From Candidatus Rokuibacteriota bacterium (GTDB lineage Bacteria > Methylomirabilota > Methylomirabilia > Rokubacteriales > CSP1-6), in the NCBI GenBank assembly GCA_030647435.1, contig JAUSJX010000012.1:72063-136062 (forward strand): 64,000 bases of DNA, read 5' to 3'. The notes beneath the pieces are model-generated. The model saw only the letters and a program-made list of their open reading frames with translations, did no database searches and was not told where the DNA came from. Made by a program: the position numbers and the translations under genes. Below, piece after piece: positions 8,558-35,422 of the stretch (position 1 is its first letter; each line of letters opens with the position of its first letter).

Positions 8558-8563
8558 TGATGG

Positions 8564-15629: not shown

Positions 15630-15630
15630 G

Positions 15631-15819
15631 ATGGCGATTGCCACGGCGTTCTATCCGAGCATCAGCTATGGCAGCGGGCCGACGCAGAGCGTTCCCCAGG
15701 AAGGAGGCAAAAGCTGCCCGTGGGCAGGATTTGAAAGCAGCCGATCCGCCAGGACCGCACCCTCAACATCCTCATCCGCCCGGAGCCGTTCGCGTTCTGC
15801 GGCGAGGAGAGACCCATGA
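15631..15819 (+). pseudogene. Probable frameshifted small gene
   Basis: An ATG directly after the tape-measure stop opens with a natural-looking sequence (MAIATAFYPSISYGSGPTQS), then continues as Ser/Arg low-complexity. In another frame, 15738-15815 reads KQPIRQDRTLNILIRPEPFA, again protein-like. One frameshift or small deletion near 15700 would explain both. The intact product is not identified. Confidence 0.4.
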
Positions 15820-16211
15820 TTGACCCTGTCCCGACGCCGGCCGAACTCCCGCGCGCGCTGCTGGTCGCGCTGATGGCCGAAGCCGCGCGCGCGGTCGCCA
15901 CGGTCAACGGCGCCATCGCGTTGCAGCTCGCCCAGCCCGCGCCGCTCCCGGCCGAATCCGAGGCCTGGCGGGCGACGCTCGTCCAGGTCGCGTTCGGGCC
16001 GCTGTACAACATCTGGACCGCGCTCGAGCCGGCACAACTGCCCGCGGCGGGCGCCCATGTGATCTTGGCGCTCCTTCGTGAAATGACCGCGACCGCCTCG
16101 GCGGGGATCGCCGTCTTGCGCCAGTTCGCCACGCCGCTCCCCGCGACGGAGCCGGCCAGCCCGCCCCTGCCCGCCGTGGGCGCCAGTCCCGGGCCCGGCT
16201 CCCCGATATGA
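15816..16211 (+). CDS. Hypothetical protein
   Basis: 131 residues, Ala/Pro-rich, mostly helical (LPRALLVALMAEAARAVATV), ending in a Pro-rich tail. Overlaps the next gene by ATGA. Function unknown. Confidence 0.5.
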   Translation: MIDPVPTPAELPRALLVALMAEAARAVATVNGAIALQLAQPAPLPAESEAWRATLVQVAFGPLYNIWTALEPAQLPAAGAHVILALLREMTATASAGIAVLRQFATPLPATEPASPPLPAVGASPGPGSPI

Positions 16212-16570
16212 CGCCATTCCGGTCGGTGCTGCACGGCGCCTGTCTCGTCGGCGGGCGGCATCCCGCGGGCTCCAGGCTCGCCGCCGAATGTCCCGTTTTG
16301 CGCCGTCAGGGGCGTCGCGGACAGGGGGGGCAAGGGGGTAGTAGCGGGTCGCTCGAAATGGCCTCGCCAAAACCCTTGCATCCCGAGGGGTTGGCGAGCG
16401 GATTCCGCAACGTTGAGGACCACCCCGAAGGCGCGCTCGCCCACCGGCGCCTGAAACCGGGGCGGCCGGCGACCCAGGAGCCGTCGCGCTACGCCCGCTT
16501 CCGCCGCCGGCATCCCGAATATCAGCAGCGTGAAGCGCAGCGCAAGCAGGCGCGACCGGCGACGGACTAG
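16208..16570 (+). CDS. MTPFRSV-type conserved element protein
   Basis: 120 residues. The first 30 residues (MTPFRSVLHGACLVGGRHPA) are closely matched by 27851-28045 in element B (MTPFRSVIHGTCLVGGRHPV), so it belongs to the shared backbone between the tape-measure gene and the XRE regulator. The rest is Gly/Arg-rich and ends in YARFRRRHPEYQQREAQRKQ, a basic helix. Function unknown. Confidence 0.6.
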   Translation: MTPFRSVLHGACLVGGRHPAGSRLAAECPVLRRQGRRGQGGQGGSSGSLEMASPKPLHPEGLASGFRNVEDHPEGALAHRRLKPGRPATQEPSRYARFRRRHPEYQQREAQRKQARPATD

Positions 16571-16643
16571 GCGCCCGGCTGTGCTATCGTCCGGCCCGTC
16601 GACGATCGAGGAGTCAATCGTCCGAACACGCCCGGAGGCCTGC

Positions 16644-17048
16644 ATGGCAACGCGACACCCGGTCCATCGAACCTGCCCAGCCCCAAAACCGTTCGGCTCC
16701 CCCTGCAACCACCGCCTCGAGGGCGCCGAGATCCGCTGCCACGCGCACCAGGACGCGGACCCAACGCGGCAGTGCGCCGCCGTGCTCGGTCGGAACGGTA
16801 CGTCCCGACGCTGCGCGGCGTGGCCGATGCCCGGCCTGCCTTTTTGCGCGGCGCATGATCCCGTGACCATCGCCCTCCGCCGCGAGGAGGCACAATCGGC
16901 GCGGGCCCGGATCGCCGCCGTCCGCCAGGCCGTTGCCGCGGCGCCCGTGCTCATCCAGGGCAAGATGCTCGATCTCCTGGTGGTGGAGCGCCAGGTCGAC
17001 GTCGGCGCCGTCGAGGCCGTGGCGCGGCGCTACCAGGTGCTCGGGTGA
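16644..17048 (+). CDS. Cys/His-rich putative zinc-binding protein
   Basis: 134 residues. The first 75 residues hold repeated Cys/His ligands (CPAPKPFGSPC, CHAHQ, CAAVLG, RRCAAW, FCAAHDP), two zinc knuckle-like units. The C-terminal half is helical (LIQGKMLDLLVVERQVDVGA). GGAGG lies 6 bases before the ATG. A DNA- or RNA-binding role is plausible. The element B counterpart position holds a different Cys4-type protein. Confidence 0.6.
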   Translation: MATRHPVHRTCPAPKPFGSPCNHRLEGAEIRCHAHQDADPTRQCAAVLGRNGTSRRCAAWPMPGLPFCAAHDPVTIALRREEAQSARARIAAVRQAVAAAPVLIQGKMLDLLVVERQVDVGAVEAVARRYQVLG

Positions 17049-17103
17049 GGGGCTGGGCGAGCTCAAAGAGAGCGCTTGACAACTCTGCTTACTGAGGGCT
17101 AGC

Positions 17104-17307
17104 ATGTCCCCTAAGAGACTGAGCCGCGTGATCCAGACACTCCGAGAGGCGAAGGGCCTGACGCAGCGCGACCTGGCCACGAAGGCCAAGGTCACGGCGG
17201 GCTATGTCGCGCAGCTCGAGATGGGGGTGCGGAAGAACCCCTCCCTCGACGTCCTTCGCCGCCTCGCCAAGGCGCTCGGCGTGCCGGTGACGGAGTTACT
17301 GGGCTAA
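17104..17307 (+). CDS. XRE-family regulator
   Basis: 67 residues, a complete Cro/CI-type helix-turn-helix domain (REAKGLTQRDLATKAKVTAG, then YVAQLEMGVRKNPSLDVLRR). Element B carries a close homologue (27342-27545), and the two share the ends MSPKRL and VPVTELLG. A TTGACA box lies at 17076-17081, the same 21-22 base distance from the start codon as in B. It probably controls the element's operons. Its stop overlaps the start of the Toprim gene (TAATG). Confidence 0.85.
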   Translation: MSPKRLSRVIQTLREAKGLTQRDLATKAKVTAGYVAQLEMGVRKNPSLDVLRRLAKALGVPVTELLG

Positions 17308-18245
17308 TGGGCCGCGGCCGGGCGGAGAAGAGCCTCGATCTGGTGCTGCTGGCCCACGAGATCCTGGAGCAGATCCAGCCGGCCAGTGTCCGCGCCGTCT
17401 GCTACCAGCTCTTTGTGCGCGGGGCCATCCCGGGGATGGACAAGGCCAGCACGAATCGGGTGGGCGCGCTCCTGACACGGGCGCGCGAGGAAGGCGAGAT
17501 CCCGTGGGAGTGGATCGTGCAGGAGGGACGCGCGATCGAGTCCGTCGCAGCCTGGCAGGATCCCGCGGCCTTCGCGCGGTCGGTCCAAGCGGCCTACCGG
17601 CGGAACAAATGGGACGGCCAGCCCACGCGCATCATGGTGGTGAGCGAGAAGGGGACCGTCCGCGGCACCCTCGCCCCGGTCCTCGAGGAGTTCGAGGTGG
17701 AGTTCCTGCCCGTCGGCGGCTACGCCAGCGCCACCCGGGTCAAAGAACTCGCGGATGCGCGCACCGCTGGGGACAAGCCCCTGCTCCTGCTCTATCTCGG
17801 GGATCACGATCCCTCGGGCCGGGGAATGTCGGACCAAGACCTCCCGCGGCGGCTGCTCCGCTACCTGAGCACCGATCGCGCCGACAAGGACGCCTGGGAC
17901 CAGGACGCCGTGGACTTCTACGCGGCCGAGTGGGGGGTGGACGTCAGACGCATCGCGCTCACCATCGAGGACACCGAGGCGCTCGGGGAGGACTTGGGGT
18001 TCCCGGCCGAGGACAAGGCGAACGACCCCCGCTATCCGTGGTTCGCGGAGACCTTCGGGTCCTGGTGTTGGGAGTTGGATGCGCTGAATCCGAACATCCT
18101 CCGCGGGCGGGTGCGCGACGCCCTGCGGGCGGAGCTGGACCCCGTGCAGTGGGCGCGCTATGTGGCGGCGGAGCAGGTCGAGCGGGCGTCGATCACCCAG
18201 ACGCTCGACGCCTGGAAGTCTATTTCCGGGCTCGCACGAGAATAG
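17307..18245 (+). CDS. Topo VI-A/Spo11-like Toprim protein
   Basis: 312 residues. The N-terminal winged-helix-like part (SVRAVCYQLFVRGAIPG, IPWEWIVQEGR) and the Toprim core (VVSEKGT with Glu, LYLGDHDPSGRG with the DxD pair, then ELDALNPNILRGRV) match a family of small topoisomerase VI A-related proteins seen in actinobacterial phages and mobile elements. The catalytic Tyr of true topoisomerases is not evident. Fused in operon with the XRE regulator by TAATG. In element B that partner slot holds a zincin. The role is unknown, perhaps DNA end processing or replication control. Confidence 0.65.
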   Translation: MGRGRAEKSLDLVLLAHEILEQIQPASVRAVCYQLFVRGAIPGMDKASTNRVGALLTRAREEGEIPWEWIVQEGRAIESVAAWQDPAAFARSVQAAYRRNKWDGQPTRIMVVSEKGTVRGTLAPVLEEFEVEFLPVGGYASATRVKELADARTAGDKPLLLLYLGDHDPSGRGMSDQDLPRRLLRYLSTDRADKDAWDQDAVDFYAAEWGVDVRRIALTIEDTEALGEDLGFPAEDKANDPRYPWFAETFGSWCWELDALNPNILRGRVRDALRAELDPVQWARYVAAEQVERASITQTLDAWKSISGLARE

Positions 18246-18254
18246 AAGTAGAAA

Positions 18255-18285
18255 CGCCCCGCGACGTCTAGCGACGTCCGGGGCG
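18255..18285 (+). ncRNA. Conserved bulged hairpin, copy in element A
   Basis: CGCCCCG (18255-18261) pairs with CGGGGCG (18279-18285). After a single bulged C the inner GACGTC pairs with GACGTC around a TAGC loop. Element B has the same structure at 26797-26825 with a different inner helix (GGCGG/CCGCC), so the pairing is kept while the bases change. The flanks (AAGTAGAAA before, GGCCCATCACCC after) are also conserved. It could be a terminator, an attenuator or a cis-acting RNA element. Confidence 0.6.
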
Positions 18286-18321
18286 ACGGCCCATCACCCA
18301 CACCCGACGAAGGAGGAGCGA

Positions 18322-18978
18322 ATGAGCACCCCGATCTTAGCAGCCCCGAAGCGACTCAGCGACGAAAAGTTCATGGATGCGATCGACAAGCTCAAGCCCA
18401 ACGTGTTTCCCGCCGTGGTCGCCGGAAAGGTTGACACCGGGACGATCACGGCTACGTGCTTCAACCTCATCAACGCCGACGGGCAGCGCCTCGCGGCACT
18501 GACGACCAACGACAACGGGTGCCCCGGTTTGGTCTTCTTTCATCCCGGAAGCGACGGCGCCCGCCTGGAGGTGATGCTCGAGGCGGCCGGGCCGGTGGTG
18601 AAATTCAACGACGCGAAGGGCAGGCAACGCCTGCGGGTCCACATCGGGCCCGGCGATACGCCGGCCGTGTTCCTCACGGGGGCGACTGGCCTCCCGCGGA
18701 TAAGCCTGATGGTCGATCGCGACCACCCACGGGTGATCCTCTTCCCTCGCGGTGCCCGCCATCGGTCCGTGGTTGCCGGGGTGCCCTTTCCCAAGATCCC
18801 GGAGCCCCGAGCTTGGGCGAGAGCCATGCGCGCCGCCAGGAGCAACAAACGGGCGGCATTCGAGACGGCGGCCCTGGACGCGGGCTTCCTGACGCCCGAG
18901 CTGCTGAAACTCTGGAACTTCGCCCGGCGGCGGCTCCGGCACCGGCCAGTCTCGCGTGCCCGGAAGGTGGTGGCGTGA
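18322..18978 (+). CDS. Hypothetical protein
   Basis: 218 residues. The middle is rich in beta-like segments (PGLVFFHPGSDGARLEVMLE, RLRVHIGPGDTPAVFL, LPRISLMVDRD), suggesting a sandwich-like fold, followed by a basic helical tail. AGGAGGAG precedes the ATG. Not recognised, and without a counterpart in element B. Confidence 0.55.
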   Translation: MSTPILAAPKRLSDEKFMDAIDKLKPNVFPAVVAGKVDTGTITATCFNLINADGQRLAALTTNDNGCPGLVFFHPGSDGARLEVMLEAAGPVVKFNDAKGRQRLRVHIGPGDTPAVFLTGATGLPRISLMVDRDHPRVILFPRGARHRSVVAGVPFPKIPEPRAWARAMRAARSNKRAAFETAALDAGFLTPELLKLWNFARRRLRHRPVSRARKVVA

Positions 18979-19283
18979 TGGCGGCGCGGGCGAAGACCGA
19001 AGCCCCGCCGGACCCGGGGGACCTCTCCTGCCTCGCCCAGCGACTCACGGCGGTACTTGTGACGCTCCAGGAGGCCACCGACGTCGAGGGCGACCTGCTC
19101 GATCGGCTCAAGGCCCATCATGAGGACCTCCCGTACGCGCTGCTCTGCGAGCTCTTCCCCGTGGCCATCCGCATGAGCAGAGAACTTGAAACGGGCCTCG
19201 ACCTGCAAACGCAGCAGCCGCCGATCGCTCCAACGCCGGCCCTCAAGCCGCATGCGCGGACCGACAGGCGGAGGGCCGCGTGA
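18978..19283 (+). CDS. Hypothetical protein
   Basis: 101 residues, TGATG-coupled to the previous gene. A single helical domain (LAQRLTAVLVTLQEATDVEG, DLPYALLCELFPVAIRMSRE) with a Pro-rich tail. Unknown function. Confidence 0.5.
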   Translation: MAARAKTEAPPDPGDLSCLAQRLTAVLVTLQEATDVEGDLLDRLKAHHEDLPYALLCELFPVAIRMSRELETGLDLQTQQPPIAPTPALKPHARTDRRRAA

Positions 19284-19693
19284 TGGGGGCGCGCGACGTG
19301 GGCGCGGTGATCGCGATCCCAAGCCTCGCGGAGGTCGTTGCAGACGCGAGCCGGGCCAAGGGGCTGACGCGGCCTGCGTTGGGCGCGCTCCTCATCGAGC
19401 TCGCAGCGGTCCAGACACAGCTCAGCGCCGAAGTCGCGACTGCGTCAGATGCCCCAGCCGTCGCCCCGCCCGATCGTTCCTTGACCATCGAGCAAGCGGC
19501 CGACCGGGTGCACGTGGCGCCGGCCACGATGAAGAGATGGCTTCGTCGAGAACCCTTCAACGCGGCCGTCGTCGTGCGGTCTCGGACCATGGTGCGGGTC
19601 AGCGCCGCCATGCTTGAGCAGGTGATTCAGGGAGGGGCCGCGGTCCGCCAGCGCCGTCGGCAGATCATGGCGCGGGCAGGAAGCGGCGCGTGA
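19283..19693 (+). CDS. HTH-domain protein (excisionase-like)
   Basis: 136 residues. The C-terminal part LTIEQAADRVHVAPATMKRW followed by RSRTMVRVSAAMLEQVI is a MerR/excisionase-type winged helix. It could be the directionality factor for the serine recombinase three genes downstream or a transcription factor. Start by TGATG overlap; a GTG three bases earlier is possible. Confidence 0.6.
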   Translation: MGARDVGAVIAIPSLAEVVADASRAKGLTRPALGALLIELAAVQTQLSAEVATASDAPAVAPPDRSLTIEQAADRVHVAPATMKRWLRREPFNAAVVVRSRTMVRVSAAMLEQVIQGGAAVRQRRRQIMARAGSGA

Positions 19694-19884
19694 TGGAAAC
19701 GCTCCTGCTCGCCCTCTGGATTGTCTCCCTGCTCCTCTCGCTCGGATCGCGTCGGGGCGCGTCGGTGCTGGTCGTGCCTGTGGTGGTGGTGCTCGTGCCG
19801 ACCCCCGAGGCGGCCACGCCGGCACTCCGGGGGGAGGATTGGTTGCGGCGCCAGCTCGAGGGGCTGGGGAAGGAGAAAGGATGA
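19693..19884 (+). CDS. Small membrane protein ending in LRRQLEGL
   Basis: 63-64 residues: two hydrophobic segments (TLLLALWIVSLLLSLG and ASVLVVPVVVVLVP) and the C-terminus GEDWLRRQLEGLGKEKG. The LRRQLEGL tail, with matching DNA, recurs at the ends of three unrelated element B genes (23722, 24072, 24452). The next gene starts by ATGATG overlap with AAGGAG inside this gene's end. Confidence 0.55.
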   Translation: METLLLALWIVSLLLSLGSRRGASVLVVPVVVVLVPTPEAATPALRGEDWLRRQLEGLGKEKG

Positions 19885-20465
19885 TGCCAACGGCGAGACG
19901 GATGATCCCCTGCACGGAGACAATCTCCGCGATGATGGCGGCGCAGGTGATGGAGGTCATGAACGAGTACGGGTTGATCGACGTTGGCGACGACCCGCAG
20001 GCCAATGCGGAAGCGAACGCGAATGCCGTCATGCGCGTCTTCAAGGCGCAAGGGCTGATGACAGCGAATGGTGACGTCCGCGCAGGGGCCTGCATCTTGC
20101 TGCCGGGCGCCTCCGCGGGCGCCGGGTTCAAGCTGCTGTTTACCCTTCCCGCGATCGCGGAGGAGCATGACGGGGCCACTTTGCAACGGAAGCGGTCGCC
20201 GGTCACGTTCGGCCGGACGCCGCAAGGGGAGATCATTGTCCCGGCCCGCTGGCTTCTGGCAAAACTTGAGGACCTCGCCAGCAACCCGAGTGCCCCCCGC
20301 GATGTGCGATCCCTCGCGCTGGCTCTCTCTCGCGCGAAGCGAGACGATATCGTGCTCCCAGCGGAAGCCGAGACAGTCGCGGTCGCCGTCGACTACGCGG
20401 ACGAGCGGGTGATCTTTGAAGCGCTGCCCGCCGGGCTCGTGGTCTCCGTGGAGGAAGTCCCATGA
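19881..20465 (+). CDS. Hypothetical protein
   Basis: 194 residues. N-terminal helices (SAMMAAQVMEVMNEYGLIDV) and a central beta-rich region. Not recognised. It is ATGA-coupled to the serine recombinase, so it may assist or regulate recombination. Confidence 0.5.
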   Translation: MMPTARRMIPCTETISAMMAAQVMEVMNEYGLIDVGDDPQANAEANANAVMRVFKAQGLMTANGDVRAGACILLPGASAGAGFKLLFTLPAIAEEHDGATLQRKRSPVTFGRTPQGEIIVPARWLLAKLEDLASNPSAPRDVRSLALALSRAKRDDIVLPAEAETVAVAVDYADERVIFEALPAGLVVSVEEVP

Positions 20466-22112
20466 TCGCCGCCATTTACGCTCGCAAGTCCACGGACCAG
20501 AACCTGCCCGACGAGGAGAAGTCCGTCACGCGGCAGATTGAGCGCGCCACGGCCTACGCGCAGGCGAAGGGCTGGACCGTCGCCGCGGAGCACGTCCACG
20601 CCGACGACGGGATCTCCGGGGCGGAGTTCGTCAAGCGCCCGGGCTTCCTGCGCCTCATGAACGCGCTCAAGCCGCGCCCGCCCTTCCAGGTGCTCATCAT
20701 GTCCGAGGAGTCGCGCCTCGGACGCGAGCAGATCGAGACGGCCTACGCGCTCAAGCAGATCACCGACGCCGGCGTGCGTGTGTTCTTCTACCTCGAGGAC
20801 CGCGAGCGGACGCTTGGCTCGGCCATGGACAAGGTCATGCTCTCCCTGACCAACTTCGCCGCCGAAATGGAGCGGGAGAAGGCCAGCCAGCGGACCCATG
20901 ACAAGCTGACGGGAGTATTCGAGCGCGGCCAGGTCCCCGGCGGGATGGTCTTCGGCTACGACAACGTCGAGGTCCTCTCCCCTACCCCGGGCCGGGATGG
21001 CAAGCCCCGCCGCGCCCACGTGATCCGGCAGATCAACGCACCCCAGGCCGAGGTCCTTCGCCGGATCTTCCAGCTCTGCGCGGATGGGTGGGGCCTCGTC
21101 CGCATCGCCAAGGCGCTGACTGGCGAGGGGATCGCCAAGCCCAAAGGCAAGGGCCGCGGGTGGGCACCCTCGGCGATCCGCGAGATGCTCCACCGCGAGC
21201 TCTACCACGGCCGCGTCGTGTGGAACAAGATGCAGCGGGTGCACCGGGGCGGGACGCGGGGGAAGCGCGCGCGCCCGGAGTCCGAGTGGCTGGTGCTCGA
21301 CGCGCCCGCGCTTCGCATCGTGCCCGAGCCCCTGTGGCAGGCCGCGCACGCCGCCCTCGAGCAGAAGCAGGCCGCGTATCTCCGCATGGCGGGCGGCAAG
21401 CTCATCGGCCGGCCCGAGGGCTCCCGCGAGTCGCCCTACCTGCTCACCGGGCTCTCTATCTGCCATGAGTGCGGCGGAAGCATCTGCGCGACCACGCGGA
21501 CGCACGGCCGCCACGTGCGCACCTACTACGGCTGCTTCCACCATCGGAGCCGCGGCGACGGGGGCTGCCCGAACAATCTCACGATGCCGATGGACGAGGC
21601 CAACCGGCTCCTGCTCGACGCGCTCAGCCGCGACGTGCTGACGCCCGCGATGGTCACGGGGACGCTTGAGGACACGCTCGCCGCCTGGCAGGCTGAGGGC
21701 GTGCCCGCGCTCGCGCGCCGCGAGGGCATGGAGGCTCGACTCCGGCAGCTCAACGCCGAGCTTGTCCACCTGACCAACGCCCTGGCCGGCGGGGCGCCCC
21801 CAGCCTCCGTCCATGAGGCCATCCGGGCCCGGGAGCGCGAACGGGCGGACGTGCAGGCGCAGCTCGAGCACCTGGACGGGCTGACGCGATTCACGGCAGG
21901 GGTAGATCCTCTCGCGCTCCAGGAGGACCTCGGCGCGCGGCTGGCGGACTGGCAGGGGCTCCTCGAGCGGCAGCCGATCCAGGCCCGGCAGATCCTCCGG
22001 AAGCTCCTGGTCGGCCGCCTGATCTTCGAGCCCTTTGAGGATGCGGACGGACGAGGCTACAAACTCAGAGGGCAGGCCACCTACGGGCGCCTGCTCTCCG
22101 GTGTTTATTCGG

Positions 22113-22129
<17 letters not shown>
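20462..22129 (+). CDS. Large serine recombinase (integrase of element A)
   Basis: 555 residues. The resolvase domain covers residues 1-150 with catalytic Ser10 in IYARKSTDQ and an Arg-rich active site (EESRLGREQIE). The Recombinase domain follows (about 160-270, QVPGGMVFGYDN). A zinc ribbon (CHECGG...C...C) covers about 335-375, and a coiled coil lies near 430-490. These are the parts of phage large serine integrases, which join attP and attB with a 2-bp crossover. The gene starts by ATGA overlap. Its last codons (VVPPG) and stop lie in the tRNA-Arg 3' end, so the coding region forms part of the right attachment site. Confidence 0.93.
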
Positions 22130-23298
<1,169 letters not shown>

Positions 23299-23299
<1 letters not shown>

Positions 23300-23349
23300 C
23301 AGGGCCTCCTTTCGGTCGTGGACTTGCGAGCGTAGAGGGCGGCGATCAT
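23299..23349 (-). pseudogene. Serine-recombinase N-terminal relic / integrase leader ORF
   Basis: A 16-codon frame MIAALYARKSTTERRP whose first 11 codons match the start of the serine recombinase of element A (20462-20494) at 31 of 33 bases, including the catalytic Ser codon. The stop overlaps the integrase ATG (TGATG). It reads as the scar of an exchange in which a tyrosine integrase replaced a serine recombinase, now serving as a coupled leader. Confidence 0.75.
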
Positions 23350-23371
23350 CGCGGCGCCCCTTTCCAAGGGA

Positions 23372-23725
23372 TCACGGCTTGAGAAACTCATCGATCACCG
23401 CCTGGAGGATCGGCTGAACGTGAACGCCTATGTCGACCGTGTACGCTGCCATCTTGCTCATGATCGAACGCCCTTCCGGGGATGACTGCCACCGCGTTTG
23501 GGCCTCAATCTCCGCAACGGTGTACTGTCGCACGAGGACCTCGATGATGCCCCGCTCGAGGTCCTCCCCGCGGCCCCGGAGGGTCAGGGCCAATTGAGAC
23601 TTCTTCGTGTCTGGGAGACCGGGCAGCTGCGCCACAATCCCCCGGATCATGTCCTCCAGCATGGGCACGATTGCCATGTAGTGCCGGGCTGCGATCCGTC
23701 GACGCTCCGTGGAGTCCTGATTCAC
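23372..23725 (-). CDS. DUF2059-like protein
   Basis: 117 residues. The segment AEIEAQTRWQSSPEGRSIMS with the following helix (YTVDIGVHVQPILQAVIDEF) resembles DUF2059, a helical domain found mostly in exported proteins; no signal peptide is seen here. GTG start overlapping the preceding stop. Its role in the element is unknown. Confidence 0.5.
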   Translation of the reverse strand: MNQDSTERRRIAARHYMAIVPMLEDMIRGIVAQLPGLPDTKKSQLALTLRGRGEDLERGIIEVLVRQYTVAEIEAQTRWQSSPEGRSIMSKMAAYTVDIGVHVQPILQAVIDEFLKP

Positions 23726-24075
23726 TGGCCCAGCCCCCCGCTCTGCCGGCGGAGCCAGGCTGGCCAATCGCCATCCTGAATCCGGGTCCGCGAGTGGCCC
23801 GAGATCACGTTGCACGTCAGCACCACAGGCTGCGGGCCCGCCTTGCGCAGCGCCCGGCCGACGCGCTCGGCCCGCAAGGAGAGCCTCGTCCGCTCGCGCA
23901 GCACGAGCAGCGACACGATCAGGCGATGCTTCTGCCCGGCGGCGGGGACCGTGAACAGCACGCCCTCGTCGTCCGCGAGGCGCGTGGACGTGATCGTGGC
24001 GGCCGCGGGGAACTCGTGGCGGAGATACTCGCCGACCTCCGAGACTCCGGCCGCAATGTCCGTGTGCGCGATCAT
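23722..24075 (-). CDS. Hypothetical protein ending in LRRQSGGL
   Basis: 117 residues with an alpha/beta-like body (DEGVLFTVPAAGQKHRLIVS) and the tail WPAWLRRQSGGLGQ, a variant of the LRRQLEGL end found in three other element genes. ATGA-coupled to the gene before it, GTGA-coupled to the gene after. Confidence 0.5.
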   Translation of the reverse strand: MIAHTDIAAGVSEVGEYLRHEFPAAATITSTRLADDEGVLFTVPAAGQKHRLIVSLLVLRERTRLSLRAERVGRALRKAGPQPVVLTCNVISGHSRTRIQDGDWPAWLRRQSGGLGQ

Positions 24076-24455
24076 CGCTTCCCCCCGTCCAGCCCCTCGA
24101 GCTGCCGGCCGATCCTCGGCCCCCGCACCGGGCGGCCGGCGATCGCCGACGCTGGGGGGAGCGCCGGCGGCGTGTCGCGTCGCCAGCGGTCAATCATCAG
24201 ACGCGGCCCGGGCTGCAGCGTCCGCGCCGTCTCGAGGAGGCGGCCAATCTCGACGGTGAGGGCCCAGCTCTCGTCGACGAGCGCGTGAGCCTCGGCGCGG
24301 AAGGCTTCACGACGGCGCGGGCTATGAGGATCGACGCGCGGCCCTTGCAAGCGCTGGACGCCGATCACCAACCCGGAGATCCGGCCGGGCAAGTCCTGCA
24401 GCCGCTCCGCGACGGCCGCGATCCCGTCCACCAGGTCCTCCGCCGTGGCGGTCAC
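24072..24455 (-). CDS. Hypothetical helical protein ending in GRQLEGL
   Basis: 127 residues, GTG start overlapping the preceding 23-codon frame. Helical body (DGIAAVAERLQDLPGRISGL, ALVDESWALTVEIGRLLETA) and tail GRQLEGLDGGKR. Function unknown. Confidence 0.5.
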   Translation of the reverse strand: MTATAEDLVDGIAAVAERLQDLPGRISGLVIGVQRLQGPRVDPHSPRRREAFRAEAHALVDESWALTVEIGRLLETARTLQPGPRLMIDRWRRDTPPALPPASAIAGRPVRGPRIGRQLEGLDGGKR

Positions 24456-24523
24456 CGCGGGGCCTGATCGTCCGGCGTCGGGGTGAGCCCCTCGAGCTGC
24501 CGGCGGAGCCAGGCGGTCTTCAT
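24452..24523 (-). CDS. 23-residue peptide MKTAWLRRQLEGL...
   Basis: A very short frame (MKTAWLRRQLEGLTPTPDDQ plus three residues) whose ATG overlaps the stop of the 689-residue protein gene and whose stop overlaps the next GTG. It consists almost wholly of the recurrent LRRQLEGL module. It may be a real micropeptide or a residue of a longer gene that keeps ribosomes moving. Confidence 0.4.
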   Translation of the reverse strand: MKTAWLRRQLEGLTPTPDDQAPR

Positions 24524-26589
24524 GCTCTCGCCTTTCGCCGAGCCGTCTTCCGCGCTCGCGCTCGCGCCTCTGCCTGGGCGAGCAGTCGGTTGGCCACAGC
24601 GACGACGCGGACGCTCGTCCCGTGTCCCCCGAGGACGCGGCAGACAGCTGAGACTCCGACTCCGGCGGCTTGGGCGATGCGTGTCTGGCTGATCCCGGCG
24701 GCTTTCAGCCTCGGAGGCAGCCAGACGGCCACACGACTCGACTCCTCGATCGCCGTGGCTCGGGTGCGCTGCGTGTGCTCGCTCTCCGCCCGTTGCCGGG
24801 CCTGCTCTAGTTCTCGACGCTCCTTTGTGATTTTCGCGCGATCCGCGGCGGCCGAGCGTGTCAACTCGTCGAGCTCGGCTCGTTCGCGGGCCAGCTCGTC
24901 GCGCGGCGAGGGAGCCGGCGCGGCCCCCGCGAGAGAAACCGCTTCGGCTGGCGGCGCAGGCGCGCTTCCCTTCGCGCGAGCCTCCGCGGCCCCAATCATG
25001 GCCCGCGCCGTTTCTAGAACCCGCTCGTTCTTCTGGCGTCCAGCGAGGACGTGACACACCGAGGCGCGACTGAAGCCGGCGAGCTGGGCGATTTGCGCCT
25101 GAGTAATGCCCAGCTCTCTGAGGCGGCTGGCAAGGGCTGGGTGCGCGGCGACCGCTCGGAGAGCCCGGCTCATGGGATCCGGGCGCGCCGGCGGGGGCCA
25201 GCCGCCGGGCAGCAGGGCGAGCGCCGCCCGTCGTCGCCGCTCCAGCTCGCCGACCTCTTCGAGCAGCTCCGCGCGGTCTCGCGCGACCCCAGCGATCACG
25301 TCCTCGCGCAGCGCCGCCCGCTCGGCCTCAAGTGTCGCGTGGCTCTCGTCGACAGCCTGCTTGGTTGCCGCACGCTCGGCCTCCAGGGCCCCCTGCGCGC
25401 TGGCTATCGTCTGCCGCGCGAGGCGCAGCAGACGCTCCTGTTCGGCCAGACGTGCCTCTCGGCGCATGGCGTGCTGATGCCAGAGACGCTGCTCCCCCAC
25501 CGACGGTCCCGGGACGGCCGGGCGCGCGATGATCCCCCGTGCGATCAGGCGCCACTCGCGGTAGGTCGGAATGGTGACACCCGCGAGGGCCTCAACGTGG
25601 GGGACGAACGCGAGGATCTCGGCATCGAGGCGCTCGAGCGCCTTGCGCTTGGCGTAGAGTGTCCCTGCCGCGTAGGGTCGACCCTTGTGTATGGGACCCG
25701 CGGAGACGCCTCGGGCCAGGTCCTCGAGGAGTACGTCTCGCCACTGGATCCCAGGCTGAATTTTCTTCCACAGCTGGTCCGCGTCCCACCGCTGCCCTTT
25801 GGCGAATCGGACCCATAGCGCTCGGCGGGCGGCGAGACTGTCGCCCCCGAGCGCCCGGGTCTCAGCGTGGGCCATGTAGGCGCTGAATCGCTCCTGCCGG
25901 CGGTCCGACGTCACGCCCCCAAGTGCCCGGCGCGCCGCCTCCCGTCGCGCTGCTGGCGGCTTCACCAAGTCTTGCCAGTCGTCTAGCGCCTCGCCCACCA
26001 AATCAACGAGCGCCTGCGGCGCCAGGCCGTGACGGAGGACGTCGAGCAGGACCTCTCGAAGCGCTGGCGCGGCCTCCTCTTCTTCTTCCTCCTCCTCGGT
26101 AGTGGCCGGGGGCAGGAGCCGCCGGAGCCGATTCGCCTCCTCGCCCCACTCGACCGGAATGCCATACCGCTCCCGGAGCGTCTCGGCGACCATCGGATCA
26201 TCCGTGAGCGCGTAGAGGTGGCGCGGGTAGGCCGCAGACGCGCGCCAGCCGCGCTCGTGCTCGACGATCTTCCCCCACAGCGCGACCTGGCCGACCACTA
26301 CGACGCCGGGGAGCCTGGGGGTTCCACTCGGAGGCGCGAAGGCCCAGGCGACCTCCTGTAACAGCATCGGATGGCAGACCGCCCAGATCCCGCACTTGCA
26401 GCCATCGGCGGGGACCTCGTGCGATTCCTCTGGACAGACGGCCTCGTGCGCCTGGCGCGGCTTCCAGGCGAGGCCACGCTTGTAGATCGGCCGGAGGAGC
26501 CCCTCGCCCGGCAGCACGTACCAGCACCGCCAGCCGACCAGGGGTTCGTCGCTGACCTCGAGCGGGAGTCTCGCGGCTTCGCCAGCCAT
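24520..26589 (-). CDS. Large protein with phage N-terminal domain, coiled coils and two HTH domains
   Basis: 689 residues. The N-terminal 150 residues (WRCWYVLPGEGLL, CKCGIWAVCHP, VVVVGQVALWGKIVEHERGW, YPRHLYALTDDP) resemble a domain common in phage hypothetical proteins. Then come an acidic stretch (eight Glu near 170), a long helical part and a coiled coil (380-470). Two LacI/XRE-like HTH motifs follow, LGITQAQIAQLAGFSRASVC and AGISQTRIAQAAGVGVSAVC, joined by a second coiled coil. It may bridge two DNA sites. TGATG overlap at the start, Arg/Lys-rich end. Confidence 0.6.
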   Translation of the reverse strand: MAGEAARLPLEVSDEPLVGWRCWYVLPGEGLLRPIYKRGLAWKPRQAHEAVCPEESHEVPADGCKCGIWAVCHPMLLQEVAWAFAPPSGTPRLPGVVVVGQVALWGKIVEHERGWRASAAYPRHLYALTDDPMVAETLRERYGIPVEWGEEANRLRRLLPPATTEEEEEEEEAAPALREVLLDVLRHGLAPQALVDLVGEALDDWQDLVKPPAARREAARRALGGVTSDRRQERFSAYMAHAETRALGGDSLAARRALWVRFAKGQRWDADQLWKKIQPGIQWRDVLLEDLARGVSAGPIHKGRPYAAGTLYAKRKALERLDAEILAFVPHVEALAGVTIPTYREWRLIARGIIARPAVPGPSVGEQRLWHQHAMRREARLAEQERLLRLARQTIASAQGALEAERAATKQAVDESHATLEAERAALREDVIAGVARDRAELLEEVGELERRRRAALALLPGGWPPPARPDPMSRALRAVAAHPALASRLRELGITQAQIAQLAGFSRASVCHVLAGRQKNERVLETARAMIGAAEARAKGSAPAPPAEAVSLAGAAPAPSPRDELARERAELDELTRSAAADRAKITKERRELEQARQRAESEHTQRTRATAIEESSRVAVWLPPRLKAAGISQTRIAQAAGVGVSAVCRVLGGHGTSVRVVAVANRLLAQAEARARARKTARRKARA

Positions 26590-26762
26590 CAGCCGACGTG
26601 CTCGGGCTCAGGCTCCAGGACGGGGCGCGGCGCCGGGTCTGGGATCTCTTCCTGGGGCAGCGGCGCCGGCACGGGCAGCTCGCGCGGGACGATGTACCAC
26701 TTCCGCTGCGGTTCGCCGACTTCCATCGCTCGGATGGCCGGTGATACACTGACCTCGCTCAT
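26589..26762 (-). CDS. Small Pro-rich protein
   Basis: 57 residues; the Trp/Tyr patch EPQRKWYIVPRELPVPAPL precedes a Pro/Glu-rich end. GGAGGGG before the ATG decides the start. The leader upstream is conserved with that of 18322 in element A and contains the bulged hairpin. Function unknown. Confidence 0.5.
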   Translation of the reverse strand: MSEVSVSPAIRAMEVGEPQRKWYIVPRELPVPAPLPQEEIPDPAPRPVLEPEPEHVG

Positions 26763-26796
26763 CGTCCCCTCCGTCACGTTCGGGTGATGGGCCATG

Positions 26797-26825
26797 GCCC
26801 CGGGCGGTTCGCGCCGCCGCGGGGC
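26797..26825 (-). ncRNA. Conserved bulged hairpin, copy in element B
   Basis: On the minus strand GCCCCG pairs with CGGGGC. After a bulged C the inner GGCGG pairs with CCGCC around a CGCGAA loop. The preceding AAGTAGAAACGCCCCGCG and following GGCCCATCACCC match the element A copy (18255-18285) while the inner helix has changed with pairing kept. Between the zincin gene and the next gene. Confidence 0.6.
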
Positions 26826-26829
26826 GTTT

Positions 26830-27345
26830 CTACTTCAGTCGTAGTGCCTCAGCCTCGAATGTCTCTTCCTCGAGCCAGAAGCCCCAAGCTCGAGCAATAG
26901 CGTCGGCCACCTTCTCTCCGCCCGAGATCTCCTCTGGAGTCTTTTCGCGGTAGTGGTCGTTCGTGCCGCTGACTCGCGTGTAGGGCTTGCCGCCGAGGGC
27001 CATGCTCCCACACGCCATCCCGGACGCCACGTGTCCCAGCTCGTGAGCGATCACCCACATGACGGAGAGATCAGAGAAGCCATCGAGCCACGGTTGGAAG
27101 AGCGTCACGGTCCACACCTGCTCGTTGTGCCCCTCGATCGGCGGATCGTCGGCGGCCGTCTCTAATTCTTCCTCGCGGAGAGAGCTCGCAATACCGCGCG
27201 CGGGTTTCTCGGGCGAAAGTTCAACGCTCAGCGTTCGGTAGTAGTCCCACCCTTCGGGAAGTCGGGTAAGCACATGCCTGAGCACTTCGCGGTAGCGGCC
27301 CGGAGGCAGCGCTGATGCGATCTCCTCGAAAGCGTGCTCGTTCAC
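26830..27345 (-). CDS. Zincin-type metallopeptidase next to XRE regulator
   Basis: 171 residues with VMWVIAHELGHVASGMACGS, the HExxH zinc site, and a later Glu (GGEKVADAIARAWGF) as possible third ligand. Coupled by ATGA to the upstream XRE gene. The pairing recalls ImmA/IrrE-type proteases that inactivate a neighbouring phage-like repressor on induction (ImmR/ImmA of ICEBs1), though overall similarity to ImmA is not obvious. If analogous, it would destroy the XRE repressor. Confidence 0.65.
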   Translation of the reverse strand: MNEHAFEEIASALPPGRYREVLRHVLTRLPEGWDYYRTLSVELSPEKPARGIASSLREEELETAADDPPIEGHNEQVWTVTLFQPWLDGFSDLSVMWVIAHELGHVASGMACGSMALGGKPYTRVSGTNDHYREKTPEEISGGEKVADAIARAWGFWLEEETFEAEALRLK

Positions 27346-27545
27346 CCCAGCAGCTCCGTCACCGGCACGCCGAGGGCCTTGGCGAGGCGACGGAGCACCG
27401 CGAGGGAGGGGTTCTTCCTGACGCCCGTTTCGAGCATCGTGATATACGCGTCCGTCACGCCGATGCGCTTTGCCAGCGCCTTCTGGCTGAGCCCCTTTTC
27501 CATCCGCAGCTTTTTGATCACCTGACGTAGCCTCTTGGGAGACAC
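27342..27545 (-). CDS. XRE-family regulator
   Basis: 67 residues; HTH at MEKGLSQKALAKRIGVTDAY, then ITMLETGVRKNPSLAVLRRL. Very similar to the regulator at 17104-17307 of element A. GTG start with AGGAG ten bases upstream, lying inside a perfect palindrome that is its likely own operator. It is followed by the zincin gene. Confidence 0.85.
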   Translation of the reverse strand: MSPKRLRQVIKKLRMEKGLSQKALAKRIGVTDAYITMLETGVRKNPSLAVLRRLAKALGVPVTELLG

Positions 27546-27572
27546 GATAGACTAACTCCTAGTTAGTGTCAA
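27544..27572 (-). promoter_or_regulatory. Palindromic operator overlapping promoter and RBS of XRE gene
   Basis: ACTAACT (27551-27557) and AGTTAGT (27561-27567) form a perfect 7-bp inverted repeat with a 3-base centre. It abuts a TTGACA -35 box (27567-27572) and is followed by TATCGT (27544-27549), which overlaps the GTG start. The AGGAG ribosome binding site lies within the palindrome, so a bound dimer would block both steps. Confidence 0.6.
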
Positions 27573-27858
27573 GTGGGTTCCGCAACCGTCCGATGATCCC
27601 CGCCAGCTCCTCGGCCACCCGCTCGAGGGCGGCGCGGAGCCCCTGATCCCCGGCCCGCCGCGCCTCGGCCTGCTTCTGGCGGGACCTGGCCACGCGGCAC
27701 TTGCCGCTGCAGACGGTCTGCCGCCCCTGGAGCTCACGCGTCCCGCAGATCGGGCATGGCCGGGAGCCTACCACGATGCCCGAGAGGGGCGTACGTACGC
27801 CTGGGGGGCAGGGCTGGGACGCGGAATCAGCCGAGGACATGGGGAGGGGGTTACCCAC
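27559..27858 (-). CDS. Small Cys4 zinc-finger-like protein
   Basis: 99 residues. CPICGTRELQGRQTVCSGKC is a typical CxxC...CxxxC unit followed by basic RVARSRQKQAEARR and a leucine-rich helix (LERVAEELAGIIGRL). Probably binds nucleic acid. GTG at 27858 overlaps the previous gene; an ATG at 27840 is an alternative. Confidence 0.55.
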   Translation of the reverse strand: MGNPLPMSSADSASQPCPPGVRTPLSGIVVGSRPCPICGTRELQGRQTVCSGKCRVARSRQKQAEARRAGDQGLRAALERVAEELAGIIGRLRNPLDTN

Positions 27859-28045
27859 CCTCAGGGGGAGGCGGCGCGGCGAGCCGGGGCGCCCGATTCA
27901 CGCGGGCCTGTCCATGGGCGCCGGCACTGCGGCCCGCACGCTCCTGGCGCCGTAAAGCCGGGCATTCCCGGGCGAGCTTGGAGCCCACGGGATGCCGGCC
28001 GCCCACGAGGCAGGTGCCGTGGATCACCGATCGGAACGGCGTCAT
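27851..28045 (-). CDS. MTPFRSV-type conserved element protein
   Basis: 64 residues, homologous at its N-terminus (MTPFRSVIHGTCLVGGRHPV) to 16208-16570 in element A but shorter, lacking the basic C-terminal helix. ATGA-coupled to the preceding gene. Function unknown. Confidence 0.55.
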   Translation of the reverse strand: MTPFRSVIHGTCLVGGRHPVGSKLARECPALRRQERAGRSAGAHGQARVNRAPRLAAPPPPEGG

Positions 28046-28227
28046 GTCGAGGGCCGGGCGCCGGGCGGGCCGATGCTGACACCCCACCGCCGCGCCTCGT
28101 CGGTCTGCCGGCGCACGGGTCGGAGTGCCGCCAGCTCCGCGACCCGCTCGCGGTCGGCCCGAGCGATCCCGCGACGGACGACGGCCTGAAAGCGCCGATG
28201 CACGTCGGGCCGGATGGGCGTGCTCAT
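28042..28227 (-). CDS. Small basic protein
   Basis: 61 residues, helical and Arg-rich (RRFQAVVRRGIARADRERVA). Overlaps the next gene by 4 bases. Unknown function. Confidence 0.45.
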   Translation of the reverse strand: MSTPIRPDVHRRFQAVVRRGIARADRERVAELAALRPVRRQTDEARRWGVSIGPPGARPST

Positions 28228-28231
28228 GCCT

Positions 28232-28507
28232 TCAGGACGGCCGCTCGGGCGCCGCGGACTCGCCGCGCGCCTCGAGGATCACCCGATCGGCCTCGGCGCG
28301 GAGGCGCCCGGCCACCTCCCGGGACTCGCCCGTAGCTCGATCGATGAGCTCCGAGAGCGTCGTCAGGCTCCTGGCCACCTCGCCGCCCAGGCGCAGGTTG
28401 AGGTCGAACTGCGCCGCGGCCGCGCGGTGCAGCCTCCAGAGCCGCGTGGCGCTCCAGGCGACGAAAAGGACGAGGAGCATCATCAGGATCATCACCATCG
28501 TCGTCAT
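28232..28507 (-). CDS. Small membrane-anchored coiled-coil protein
   Basis: 91 residues: an N-terminal transmembrane segment (VMILMMLLVLFVAWSATRLW) and a helical cytoplasmic part (SLTTLSELIDRATGESREVA). It directly follows the tape-measure gene, where small holin- or spanin-like proteins can occur, but one TM with a long coiled coil is not diagnostic. Confidence 0.55.
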   Translation of the reverse strand: MTTMVMILMMLLVLFVAWSATRLWRLHRAAAAQFDLNLRLGGEVARSLTTLSELIDRATGESREVAGRLRAEADRVILEARGESAAPERPS

Positions 28508-28521
28508 GGTCGTCTCCTCTG

Positions 28522-31500
28522 TCAGGCCGTCAGATGCCCGATCGTCACGGTGGCGCCGAAGTCCGACTCCACGCGGAGAATCTGGAGGTCCCGGTCGCGG
28601 TCGACCTTGACGAGCTTCTCCAGGATCCGCTGCGCCTGGTCGTCGGTCAGATTGTCGAGCGTGTTCCCGATGGCGAAGAGATCCTGACCGGCCGCCTCCC
28701 CCAGGCGAGACAGCGGCAGGATCGTCTGCCGCGTGATCCGCCCCGCCGCCCCGCGGAGCCCCGTCGAGAACTGCTCGTCGTAGCCGAAGAGAATGCCCTG
28801 CTCGCTCGCCGCCAGCTCCTGGACTTTGCTGGTGACGGCTTGTTCGATGGCCCGGTTGGCGTCGTCCTTGAAGTGCTGCGCGATCCCCTGCTGGATCGAG
28901 GAGAAGAACGTGCCGGCGAGCGTGCCCTGGACGAACTGCTCCAGCGTGGCGATCGCGTACACGGCGGCGCTCGTGCCGATCAACAGCTGCCGCCCGTCTA
29001 TCACCACCCCGGTGACGATGGCGACGCTGCTGCTGCCCCCGCTATTGCCCGACCCATTGGCGGCCAGCAGGGCGTAGAGCTGCTCCGTCGACGCGGTCGC
29101 GCGGATTTGCCCGATGATCGCCGAGGCCGCATCCGAGACGCGGGTGATCTCGGCCTGCTTGCGCTGCTTGGACTCCTGCTCCGCCTTGCCGAGCATGCCC
29201 GCACCCCCGCCGATCGCCGCGCCGGCGACCGCGCCGATCAAGGTCCCCCAACCGGGAGAAATGTAGCTTCCCAAAACCGCGCCGGAGAGCGCGCCGCTGA
29301 GGGCCCCGCCGTAGGGGTCGGCCGTCTGATAGGCGGAATACGCGCTGTAGGCGAGCGCGGCCACGGCCACCACGCCCCCAGCGATCGTGGCCGCGCTCGC
29401 GCCCGCACCGGCCAACGTCCCGGAGGCCCCAGCCACGCCCGCCGCGCTGGCCCCGGCCTCGCCCACCCCCGCCCCGAGCGCCGCCGCCAGGTCTCCGGCG
29501 TTCGTCACGAGGGCTGGACCGGCCGCCGTCGCCACGATCACGGCCTGCCCGGACTGCACGGCCGCCACCGCGTTGAAGCCGCCGAGTTGGAACGCCGTGG
29601 CGATGTTCCCAGCCGAGACCGACGGGCCGAAGAAGCCCTGCCCGAACTGGCGGGCCGCCCCCAGGAGATCCGTCATGTAGCCGGTCGCCGACGAGCCGGT
29701 CACGGCACTGACACCCGTGCTCACCCGTTGCCCGATGAACCCGCTGGCGCCGACTCCCGCGCCGAGCGTCCCGCCGGCTGTCGCGCTCGCGGCCCCGCTC
29801 GCCGTGATCGCCACGCCGCCCCCGCCGCCGCCGAGCGCGAAGGGGCTCGCCACCAGCGGGATCGCCGAGAAGACGCGCCCCGGGCCACCCAGCCCGAGCC
29901 CCTGGCCGAGGGCCGCGAAGACCCGCGAGGTCAGGCCTGTGCTGAGCTGCTCGATGAAGCTCGTCAGCAGGCGCTTGCCCAGCTGCTTGCCGATGTCCCC
30001 GATCTTGTCGATCTCCCCGGTAAGCCCGGCCACGACGATGTCCGAGAAGCCGCGGTTGATGTCGTGGAAGGCCCCGACCACGGACAACCGCATCCGGTCG
30101 CCGGCCGACGCCACCTGCTCCGCGATGTCCGTGAAGCCCGCCAGCATCCCGGCGGTCGGATCGGTGCGCTCACTCTCGCGCTGCGAGACGTTGCGCGACT
30201 GCACGCGCGCCGTCAGCTCGACCAATTCCCGCTCCGAATCGGACCGGGCCCGCGAGAGATCTAGCTGTCGCTGGGCCTCGATCGTGACCAGCTGGGCCTG
30301 CGCGCGCTCGTCGGCGGTGAGTCCGACCTGCTGGTGCAGGATCTCCGCCCGCCGCACGGCCACGTCGAGCTGGCTCGCTTGGGCGCGCGTCCGCTGCCCA
30401 TCCAGCTCCTTCTCCAGTGCCGTCTGCTGCTCCGCGGTCTCGCGCTCGAAGTCCGCGAACGTCTGGGCGCTGCGGAGCCTCGCGTCGGCCGCCTCTTGCG
30501 CCTGGTCCGCCTTCTGCGTCGCCTGCCGCTGCAGCTCGGCTGTGAGGGCGAACTCCTCCTCGAATGTCTTCTGCGCGGCCTCCTGTTCGGCGGCCAGCGG
30601 GGTAAAGCGCTGGTCGATCAGCTTCTCGGACAGCGCCTTGCCCTGTTCCTCACGGGCCAGCTTCTGCCGTTGCAGCGAGATGGCCAGCTCTCCGCTCCGC
30701 GCCTCCTGTTCCAGCCGGAACGTTTCCTCAAGAGGCCCGGTCGGCAGGCCTTCCTTGATCGCGGCCGCGCGTCGAATCCCCTGCTCCTGGCGGAGGGCCT
30801 GCATGGCCAGGTCCCGCTCCCGGCGGTCGGCGGCTTCGAGCGGCCCTTGGAGCGCGCGGAAGCCGGCGAGGTCCTCCTCGTTCGCACGCCGCTGCTGCTG
30901 GAAGAGGAGCGCACGCTGCTGGGTGCCCGCGATCCCAGCCATGAGCCCGGTCTGCCTCGCGCCTTCCTGGACGCCGAGGAGACCGCCGAGCATCGTCATC
31001 GCCTGCGCGCGCTGGGCCTCCGGTGTCGGAGCGCCGAAGAACGTCTCCTGGGCCGCCTGCGGGAGCGCCTGGAGCCGCGACAGGAAGCTCTGGACGGCGC
31101 CGGTCCAGGTCCCCGCCTGATTCCCGATCCGGTTCCCGATGTCCGACATCCGGTCCATCTCGTTGTTGACGCGCGCGAGTTCCCCGCGGAGGGTGCCCAC
31201 GTCGAGCGAATTCAACGCCCGTCCAAATCGCAATTGCTCGTCCGACACGCGGTTGAGCGCGATGCCGTAGGAGGCGAGGATCGAGACCAGCCCGGTCGCG
31301 GCGCCGCCGACCGACTGTGTCATCGTGCCCGCGAGGCCGCGGAACGATCCCGTCAGGCCGGGGATGACGGCGCCGAGCTTTTCGAAGGACTCGCGGACCG
31401 CGTTGATGCCCGTGGCGAAGTGGACGTTACCGCCCGCGGTCTTGTCGAACTCCCCGCGGACTTTGTTCAGGACCTCGGTGGCTTGATCACGCGCACTGAT

Positions 31501-31527
31501 AGTTATGATTAAATCTTGAGCAGCCAT
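28522..31527 (-). CDS. Tape-measure-like protein
   Basis: 1001 residues, homologous in plan to 12759-15629. N-terminal strand MAAQDLIITISARDQATEVL, a long helical region (100-480, with repeated Glu/Gln/Arg heptads), Gly/Ala-rich hydrophobic segments (560-800) including GTLIGAVAGAAIGGGAGMLG, and a shared C-terminal domain ending near KVDRDRDLQILRVE. The start is three bases after the preceding stop. As in A, no tail-tube, distal-tail or fibre genes are adjacent. Confidence 0.75.
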   Translation of the reverse strand: MAAQDLIITISARDQATEVLNKVRGEFDKTAGGNVHFATGINAVRESFEKLGAVIPGLTGSFRGLAGTMTQSVGGAATGLVSILASYGIALNRVSDEQLRFGRALNSLDVGTLRGELARVNNEMDRMSDIGNRIGNQAGTWTGAVQSFLSRLQALPQAAQETFFGAPTPEAQRAQAMTMLGGLLGVQEGARQTGLMAGIAGTQQRALLFQQQRRANEEDLAGFRALQGPLEAADRRERDLAMQALRQEQGIRRAAAIKEGLPTGPLEETFRLEQEARSGELAISLQRQKLAREEQGKALSEKLIDQRFTPLAAEQEAAQKTFEEEFALTAELQRQATQKADQAQEAADARLRSAQTFADFERETAEQQTALEKELDGQRTRAQASQLDVAVRRAEILHQQVGLTADERAQAQLVTIEAQRQLDLSRARSDSERELVELTARVQSRNVSQRESERTDPTAGMLAGFTDIAEQVASAGDRMRLSVVGAFHDINRGFSDIVVAGLTGEIDKIGDIGKQLGKRLLTSFIEQLSTGLTSRVFAALGQGLGLGGPGRVFSAIPLVASPFALGGGGGGVAITASGAASATAGGTLGAGVGASGFIGQRVSTGVSAVTGSSATGYMTDLLGAARQFGQGFFGPSVSAGNIATAFQLGGFNAVAAVQSGQAVIVATAAGPALVTNAGDLAAALGAGVGEAGASAAGVAGASGTLAGAGASAATIAGGVVAVAALAYSAYSAYQTADPYGGALSGALSGAVLGSYISPGWGTLIGAVAGAAIGGGAGMLGKAEQESKQRKQAEITRVSDAASAIIGQIRATASTEQLYALLAANGSGNSGGSSSVAIVTGVVIDGRQLLIGTSAAVYAIATLEQFVQGTLAGTFFSSIQQGIAQHFKDDANRAIEQAVTSKVQELAASEQGILFGYDEQFSTGLRGAAGRITRQTILPLSRLGEAAGQDLFAIGNTLDNLTDDQAQRILEKLVKVDRDRDLQILRVESDFGATVTIGHLTA

Positions 31528-31528
31528 G

Positions 31529-31768
31529 TCAGCTCGCCTCCTTGGACATCGCCTGCACAATGAGCGGCGCCGCCTCGCACGGGTGCACGTCGACGGCGCG
31601 CGGGCCGCGGACGGTGTCGAGCGGGGTAAACTCGACCCGCTGCCCGATCGTCAGCTCGAGCACGTCGAGGAGGTCGTCGCGGTGGGCGAAGTATTGCCGG
31701 CGATCGGCGCCGGTGACTTTTCCGAAGCCGCGCCGCGAGTCGAAGTGGTGGCAGATCCCCGTCATCAC
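31529..31768 (-). CDS. Cold-shock-domain-like protein
   Basis: 79 residues. DSRRGFGKVTGADRRQYFAH matches the RNP1 (RGFG) and RNP2 (YFAH) parts of a CspA-type OB fold, and the following GQRVEFTPLD and PRAVDVHP are its later strands. Such proteins bind single-stranded RNA or DNA. It lies just before the tape-measure gene. ATGATG gives two possible starts. Confidence 0.7.
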   Translation of the reverse strand: MMTGICHHFDSRRGFGKVTGADRRQYFAHRDDLLDVLELTIGQRVEFTPLDTVRGPRAVDVHPCEAAPLIVQAMSKEAS

Positions 31769-31798
31769 ACCACCGCGCCCGTATGTCGGAATCGCATG

Positions 31799-35101: not shown

Positions 35102-35163
35102 TGACTGGGGCCCCGAGTAGAGAGGCGCGAGGCCCGTGAGGCCTCCCCTCGCGCGCGCGTATA

Positions 35164-35399: not shown

Positions 35400-35422
35400 C
35401 TTGGCCGGCGCGCGACGCGGTG

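Follow-up and report, generated by a model that had tools for sequence, protein, structure and literature searches.

Starts of a serine-recombinase gene recur as short leaders before unrelated genes in phage-like elements of Rokubacteria

The start of a serine recombinase gene was found as a short open reading frame directly ahead of a tyrosine integrase in a phage-like element of a Rokubacterium, and the same start recurs before other integrases, cargo genes and further unrelated genes in elements of the same order. This scatter is specific to the 5' end of the recombinase gene. The best explanation, which is assigned a probability of roughly 0.55, is a recurrent exchange of the right end of the element, or an insertion of cargo, just inside the recombinase start, whereby the start would be kept as a short leader.

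The leader of element B and its setting

The window, that is, the whole stretch of 64,000 nucleotides analysed, has a Rokubacterium as its host and contains two elements, A and B, each of about 17 kb, lying back to back at one tRNA-Arg gene (Table 1). Both are phage-like, with a Prim-Pol and a terminase-like ATPase in A, and a primase/helicase and a weak tape-measure match in B. The two are colinear relatives; upstream, they have in common an HTH regulator as well as an intergenic linker. A HELGH protein was also considered as the common upstream gene and was rejected, the conserved stretch being the HTH regulator just before it. Further copies of the linker were found at G000:C1:18028-18111 and G035:C149:35814-35889, where the neighbouring genes are unrelated and the elements related. 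The same genome contains a third related element (element C, on G000:C1), which has upstream modules in common with A and B, the recombinases of the three being different; its tyrosine integrase is not close to that of B, and directly ahead of this integrase no leader was seen. Element A is apparently a serine-recombinase element at the 3' end of the tRNA-Arg gene, with B on its 5' half. In addition, a second repeated boundary motif, WLRRQ(L/S)(E/G)GL, lies 11-19 codons ahead of stop codons overlapping the start that follows.

Table 1. Coordinates of the leader and of the features of elements A and B in the window
Feature	Position	Strand	Remarks
Leader ORF, 51 nt, 16 codons	23299..23349	(-)	MIAALYARKSTTERRP, then stop, which overlaps integrase start (TGATG)
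33-nt match to serine recombinase start	23317..23349	(-)	31/33
Shine-Dalgarno of tyrosine integrase, GAAAGGAGG	23305..23313	(-)	within last codons of leader; part of integrase cassette in relatives
Tyrosine integrase, element B, 382 residues	22151..23299	(-)	Phage_integrase PF00589
Gene upstream of leader in B	23375..23740	(-)	DUF2059-like, weak
Element A	about 4763-22129		serine recombinase at its end
Element B	22151-39925		tyrosine integrase at its beginning
Serine recombinase, element A	20462..22129	(+)	Resolvase, Recombinase, Zn_ribbon_recom; parent-type sequence in first 33 nt
Gene preceding A's recombinase	19839..20465	(+)	stop overlaps recombinase ATG (ATGA)
tRNA-Arg(CCT)	22113..22189	(-)	attachment site common to A (3' end) and B (5' half)
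B attachment repeat, 39-base	22151..22189	(-)	within tRNA and integrase 3' end; second copy 39887-39925
Probable A attachment core, 17 bp, GTGGTGCCCCCGGGGTG	22112..22128	(+)	tRNA 3' end; second copy 4763-4779
Intergenic linker, ~85 nt	18244..18328 in A; 26741-26836 in B	(+) in A; (-) in B
Boundary motif WLRRQLEGL	24486..24511	(-)	stand-alone 23-codon ORF, MKTAWLRRQLEGLTPTPDDQAPR, then stop
Further boundary-motif copies	24091-24116; 23732-23757; 19840-19865	(-); (-); (+)

Read from 23349 on the minus strand, the leader DNA is ATGATCGCCGCCCTCTACGCTCGCAAGTCCACGACCGAAAGGAGGCCCTGATGG, which translates to MIAALYARKSTTERRP. Its first 33 nt are identical to the start of A's recombinase (20462-20494, +) except for two bases, both mismatches falling in codon 5 and changing ATT (Ile) to CTC (Leu). 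The second-best 33-mer of the window reaches only 22/33, and 0.00 occurrences of the leader 36-mer with up to three mismatches are expected in shuffled sequence. The likeness begins exactly at the ATG and ends after codon 11, and the 180 nt flanking the match on each side show no similarity between A and B. The leader is therefore a homologue of the recombinase start at the DNA level, consisting of N-terminal Resolvase sequence that includes the codon of the catalytic, nucleophilic Ser (YARKS). No recombinase domain is left downstream of it in B, where an intact tyrosine integrase is found instead. These results bear out the preliminary description of this DNA, which had read the leader as the start of A's serine recombinase, Ser included, breaking off after codon 11.

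Furthermore, B's leader has a weak Shine-Dalgarno sequence of its own (AAGG) and ends in TGATG, a layout expected of a coupling leader. The TGATG indeed joins leader and integrase, as had been stated, but it was not made by the fusion: two leaderless relatives of B's integrase (L015, L016) show CTGATGGC as well, preceded by a GAAAGGAG-type Shine-Dalgarno sequence, so that this context is a property of the integrase cassette. From the same comparison, the integrase probably came with its own ribosome site and was joined behind the recombinase start.

Regarding the source of the leader, A's recombinase is the nearest of those compared, ahead of four others with 28, 26, 23 and 23 matching bases. 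Since the leader is nearer to A's recombinase than to these four, an A-type recombinase was likely present in B's ancestry, as had been proposed; the colinearity of A and B and a longer remnant in a related element (L066, below) agree with this. Gene conversion from the adjoining element A could also have given B its leader. The gene upstream of the leader in B was not found next to an intact recombinase elsewhere; a search for it gave only two homologues, neither of them seen beside a recombinase. One homologue, in G056:C162, has another YARKST-type leader after it. Because the upstream regions of the leaders are not homologous to one another, no orthologous 'before' state, in which the recombinase would still be intact, was found for B. 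A chimera of two element modules was seen at 5085 (+) in G056:C162 (L135), where the leader MTAAIYAR is fused with ALGVPVTELLE, the tail of an HTH regulator, downstream of the homologue of B's upstream gene.

Recurrence of the recombinase start

Further copies were searched for with a degenerate MIAAxYARKS pattern in 195 genomes and with the recombinase start, at up to three mismatches, in 60 genomes of the order. Most of them turned out to be short ORFs before something else rather than recombinases. Tyrosine integrases follow the start in B, L061, L062, L065 and L066: MIAAVYARKSTRERRS-TGATG leads into an integrase different from B's (L062), MIAAIYARKSTEGEP-TGATG into a third kind, which is frame-shifted (L061), and MIAAIYARKSTEQKRRR-TGATG into a B-like, truncated one (L065). 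At least three unrelated tyrosine integrases are found downstream of leader copies, together with genes for cargo, membrane and secreted proteins. In L060, MIAAIYARKSTDQAGEDGVR-ATGA precedes a gene Y and then a tyrosine integrase, while in L063 MIAAIYARKSTEQAEEAQRFLARQR-ATGA precedes a gene X and then a serine recombinase that is intact and opens with the same start. Gene Y, which also follows a leader in L066, gave no match, and for gene X there is only a weak one, to DUF5677. Elsewhere, the leader is found before a membrane protein (L139) and before an unknown gene (L140), and in-frame fusions of the start to secreted or lipoprotein-like proteins occur in L063 (at 10614) and L072. With such genes behind it, the leader is not restricted to replacements of a serine by a tyrosine integrase. 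The copies differ mostly by synonymous DNA changes, the peptide being kept, and number one to three per element. Within the window, one copy belongs to B and the other is the start of A's own gene.

Three recombinase-type starts were observed in series in L063 (G018:C188, 10614-13457, +), each stop overlapping the next start; the series comprises a secreted protein, a leader with the DUF5677-like gene, and the intact serine recombinase.

The INTERMEDIATE case, L066, reads MTATYVRKSTDQHVADEEKSVSRRNAGERRT-TGATG before an integrase 64-65% identical to B's. Its leader keeps about 24 recombinase codons (the longer remnant MTATYVRKSTDQHVADEEKSVSRR), and a second copy of the start occurs 650 bases upstream, before the Y homologue; in copy 1 the ATG is lost (ACG). 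L066 looks like an intermediate, with a longer recombinase remnant before a B-like integrase.

The specificity of this scatter was assessed with two models built from the same six recombinases. When 59 genomes of the order were scanned with the first, R3, comprising their first 39 bases, 19 places were detected at E <= 0.001, namely the 6 recombinase genes and 13 orphan starts. The second, R2, an internal 39-base motif, detected 7 places, all in recombinases and with 0 orphans (Fisher p = 0.003 for the orphan excess). In IMG/VR, 38 recombinase starts were recovered, of which 36 open long ORFs and 2 extend past the end of the stored DNA, with 0 short ones, leaving no orphan among the 36 evaluable starts. 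Altogether, these comparisons indicate that the scatter is specific to the 5' end and not a general habit of recombinase genes. Exact leader patterns were absent from IMG/VR, and a TGATG-restricted scan of 84,980 species gave two matches, both in Rokubacteria, the strict pattern occurring in no other lineage scanned. The same comparisons bear on ordinary decay, in which dead recombinase fragments would lie by chance before other genes. Clearly decayed recombinases do occur (L064, L138), as do internal fragments (G056:C20), but decay would show no preference for the first 24-45 nt, the internal R2 motif yields no orphans, and it is common for leaders to be open and to have overlapping stops. 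Given the R2/R3 comparison, decay is disfavoured and appears very improbable.

These findings also place the preliminary description in a wider frame. It had taken the leader for the scar of a recombinase swap and for rare evidence of exchange between integrase classes. In its narrow form, this reading is of a rare, one-off scar diagnostic of such a change, a single and non-functional relic of a serine recombinase swapped for a tyrosine integrase in B's ancestry. The closeness of the leader to A's recombinase, the colinear relationship of A and B and the resemblance of L066 to an intermediate are consistent with such an event; the 13 orphan starts in the order, many before non-integrase genes, and the leader ahead of an intact serine recombinase argue against it. 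As a unique event it is largely refuted, and it is judged unlikely. The term serine-recombinase relic stands, but to call it the scar of one rare swap is too restrictive. The proposed search for the leader before other tyrosine integrases, and for intermediates, was successful on both counts (L061, L062 and L065; L066). An occurrence of the same bases before many unrelated genes had been named as the refuting result, the sign of a general leader instead of a relic, and this is largely what was observed at the peptide level, with mostly synonymous DNA differences, since tyrosine integrases other than B's, cargo genes of no relation and even an intact serine recombinase lie behind the start.

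A probable right-end exchange and the fate of the leader

Under recurrent right-end exchange, the leader would go back to an ancestral serine recombinase of the A type, whose translation start was retained. The recombinase is the last gene of these Rokubacteria phage-like elements, its ATG often overlapping the preceding stop (ATGA), and everything downstream, recombinase and attachment site alike, would be exchangeable. Illegitimate recombination would repeatedly strike this gene a few codons in, between codon 8 and about codon 24. It would spare the upstream gene and its stop and remove the old recombinase body, of which only a short ORF made of the first codons would be left. Ribosomes would then reach the newly joined gene, which in B is a tyrosine integrase that has a Shine-Dalgarno sequence itself, by termination-reinitiation at a TGATG, ATGA or GTGA overlap. 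Exchange may be favoured where the overlapping stop of the upstream gene is kept and ribosomes can pass to the new gene. Recombination is presumably the route, and selection would keep the leader for coupling, not for its peptide.

Several features of the leaders are relevant to coupling. Most are preceded by a Shine-Dalgarno sequence (14 of 17, vs 22% of random ATGs, p = 2.5e-7), and their reading frames are mostly coupled or fused. Among the non-fused copies, 10/12 have a stop that overlaps the next start in frame +2 (p = 0.019 in a conservative test, which supersedes an optimistic phase test with p = 1.3e-4). When fusions and out-of-frame copies are included, 15/17 are in productive phase, a weak signal (p = 0.044). 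The overlap proportion (p = 0.02 when rounded) suggests active translational coupling through the leader. The Shine-Dalgarno sites of the leaders could simply be inherited from the recombinase, and B's integrase may not need the leader because it has a strong Shine-Dalgarno sequence of its own.

It was also considered whether the 5' segment is a functional module, kept or moved for its own sequence, which might, for example, regulate the expression of integrase and cargo as a control site or as a leader peptide, much like the start-associated sequences (SAS) of cluster K mycobacteriophages. This finds some encouragement in the pairing of leader and gene Y in L060 and L066, where the Y proteins are 39% identical and the leaders agree at about 30 of 33 bases, in the conserved peptide with its mostly synonymous changes, and in the second repeated boundary motif of the same elements. 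Recent descent from recombinase genes, however, would give the same peptide pattern, only about 13 copies occur in 59 genomes, with at most three per element, and other Y homologues and B-type integrases lack the leader. Five leaders gave no unusual fold when examined for RNA structure or attenuation (z -0.7 to +1.3), and no fold in common. A functional module is accordingly regarded as rather improbable.

Tentatively, the recombinase start may have served as a repeatedly used acceptor, with integron-like but site-unspecific loading of new integrases and of defence or cargo genes behind a translation start already in place, which would leave a chain of overlapping leaders. A stricter integron-like capture, in which the recombinase start would itself be a recombination site for cassettes and the leader would correspond to ORF-11 in attI1, can point to the order start-gene-start-gene-start-recombinase in L063, to the order start-gene-start-integrase in L066 and to the close analogy with ORF-11 (PMC8876359). 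Against this, the junctions lie at differing bases, with fragment lengths of 24 to about 72 nt as judged by eye, and this variation speaks against a single fixed crossover point; no attC-like element was seen by inspection, and A's attachment site apparently lies in the tRNA, at the far end of the gene. Strict capture is hence improbable. An attachment site within the recombinase 5' end was rejected as the main idea, because the probable 17 bp core of A lies in the tRNA at the 3' end of the gene and the junctions vary.

Comparison with known systems

No report of a recombinase-start leader was found in the openly accessible literature, which is weak evidence as subscription papers fall mostly outside it. 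Such leaders provide a sequence trail for changes of integrase class and gains of cargo at the attachment end of phages and satellites, events otherwise usually visible only through whole-genome comparison. They also lead to a testable claim, namely that the first codons of a discarded gene can stay as a coupling leader for its replacement. With the strict pattern in no other lineage of the species scanned, the elements of Rokubacteria would be the place to study it.

The closest parallel is ORF-11 in the attI1 site of class 1 integrons, which has about 11 codons and couples translation into inserted cassettes (PMC8876359). Like ORF-11, the leader is a short ORF with its own Shine-Dalgarno sequence, for which incoming genes provide the stop and from which translation would be coupled into the inserted gene (PMC8876359). 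Unlike for ORF-11, neither attI/attC sites nor a constant crossover point were seen for it, and it is the start of a serine recombinase gene instead of part of a recombination site recognised by IntI. Another repeated, start-linked motif, in related phages, is the SAS/ESAS of cluster K mycobacteriophages, which is tied to the translation starts of different genes; the SAS is a 13 bp sequence ahead of the start codon with many copies per genome (PMC3203893). In contrast, the leader begins at the ATG, is coding, has a known gene as its source and is far less frequent, with the single copy of B besides A's gene start in the window. Neither ORF-11 nor SAS derives from a recombinase gene.

In bicistronic design, a short first cistron contains the second Shine-Dalgarno sequence, and stop and start overlap. 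Unlike these leaders of synthetic biology, named in PMC5995908, the present leader is natural and comes from a recombinase gene, and its coupling is predicted from sequence. Finally, as in modular exchange and the acquisition of morons in phages, unrelated genes are swapped at the same place between conserved neighbours (e.g. PMC3029335); what distinguishes the Rokubacteria elements is the recognisable coding 5' stub that repeatedly stays behind when the gene itself is lost.
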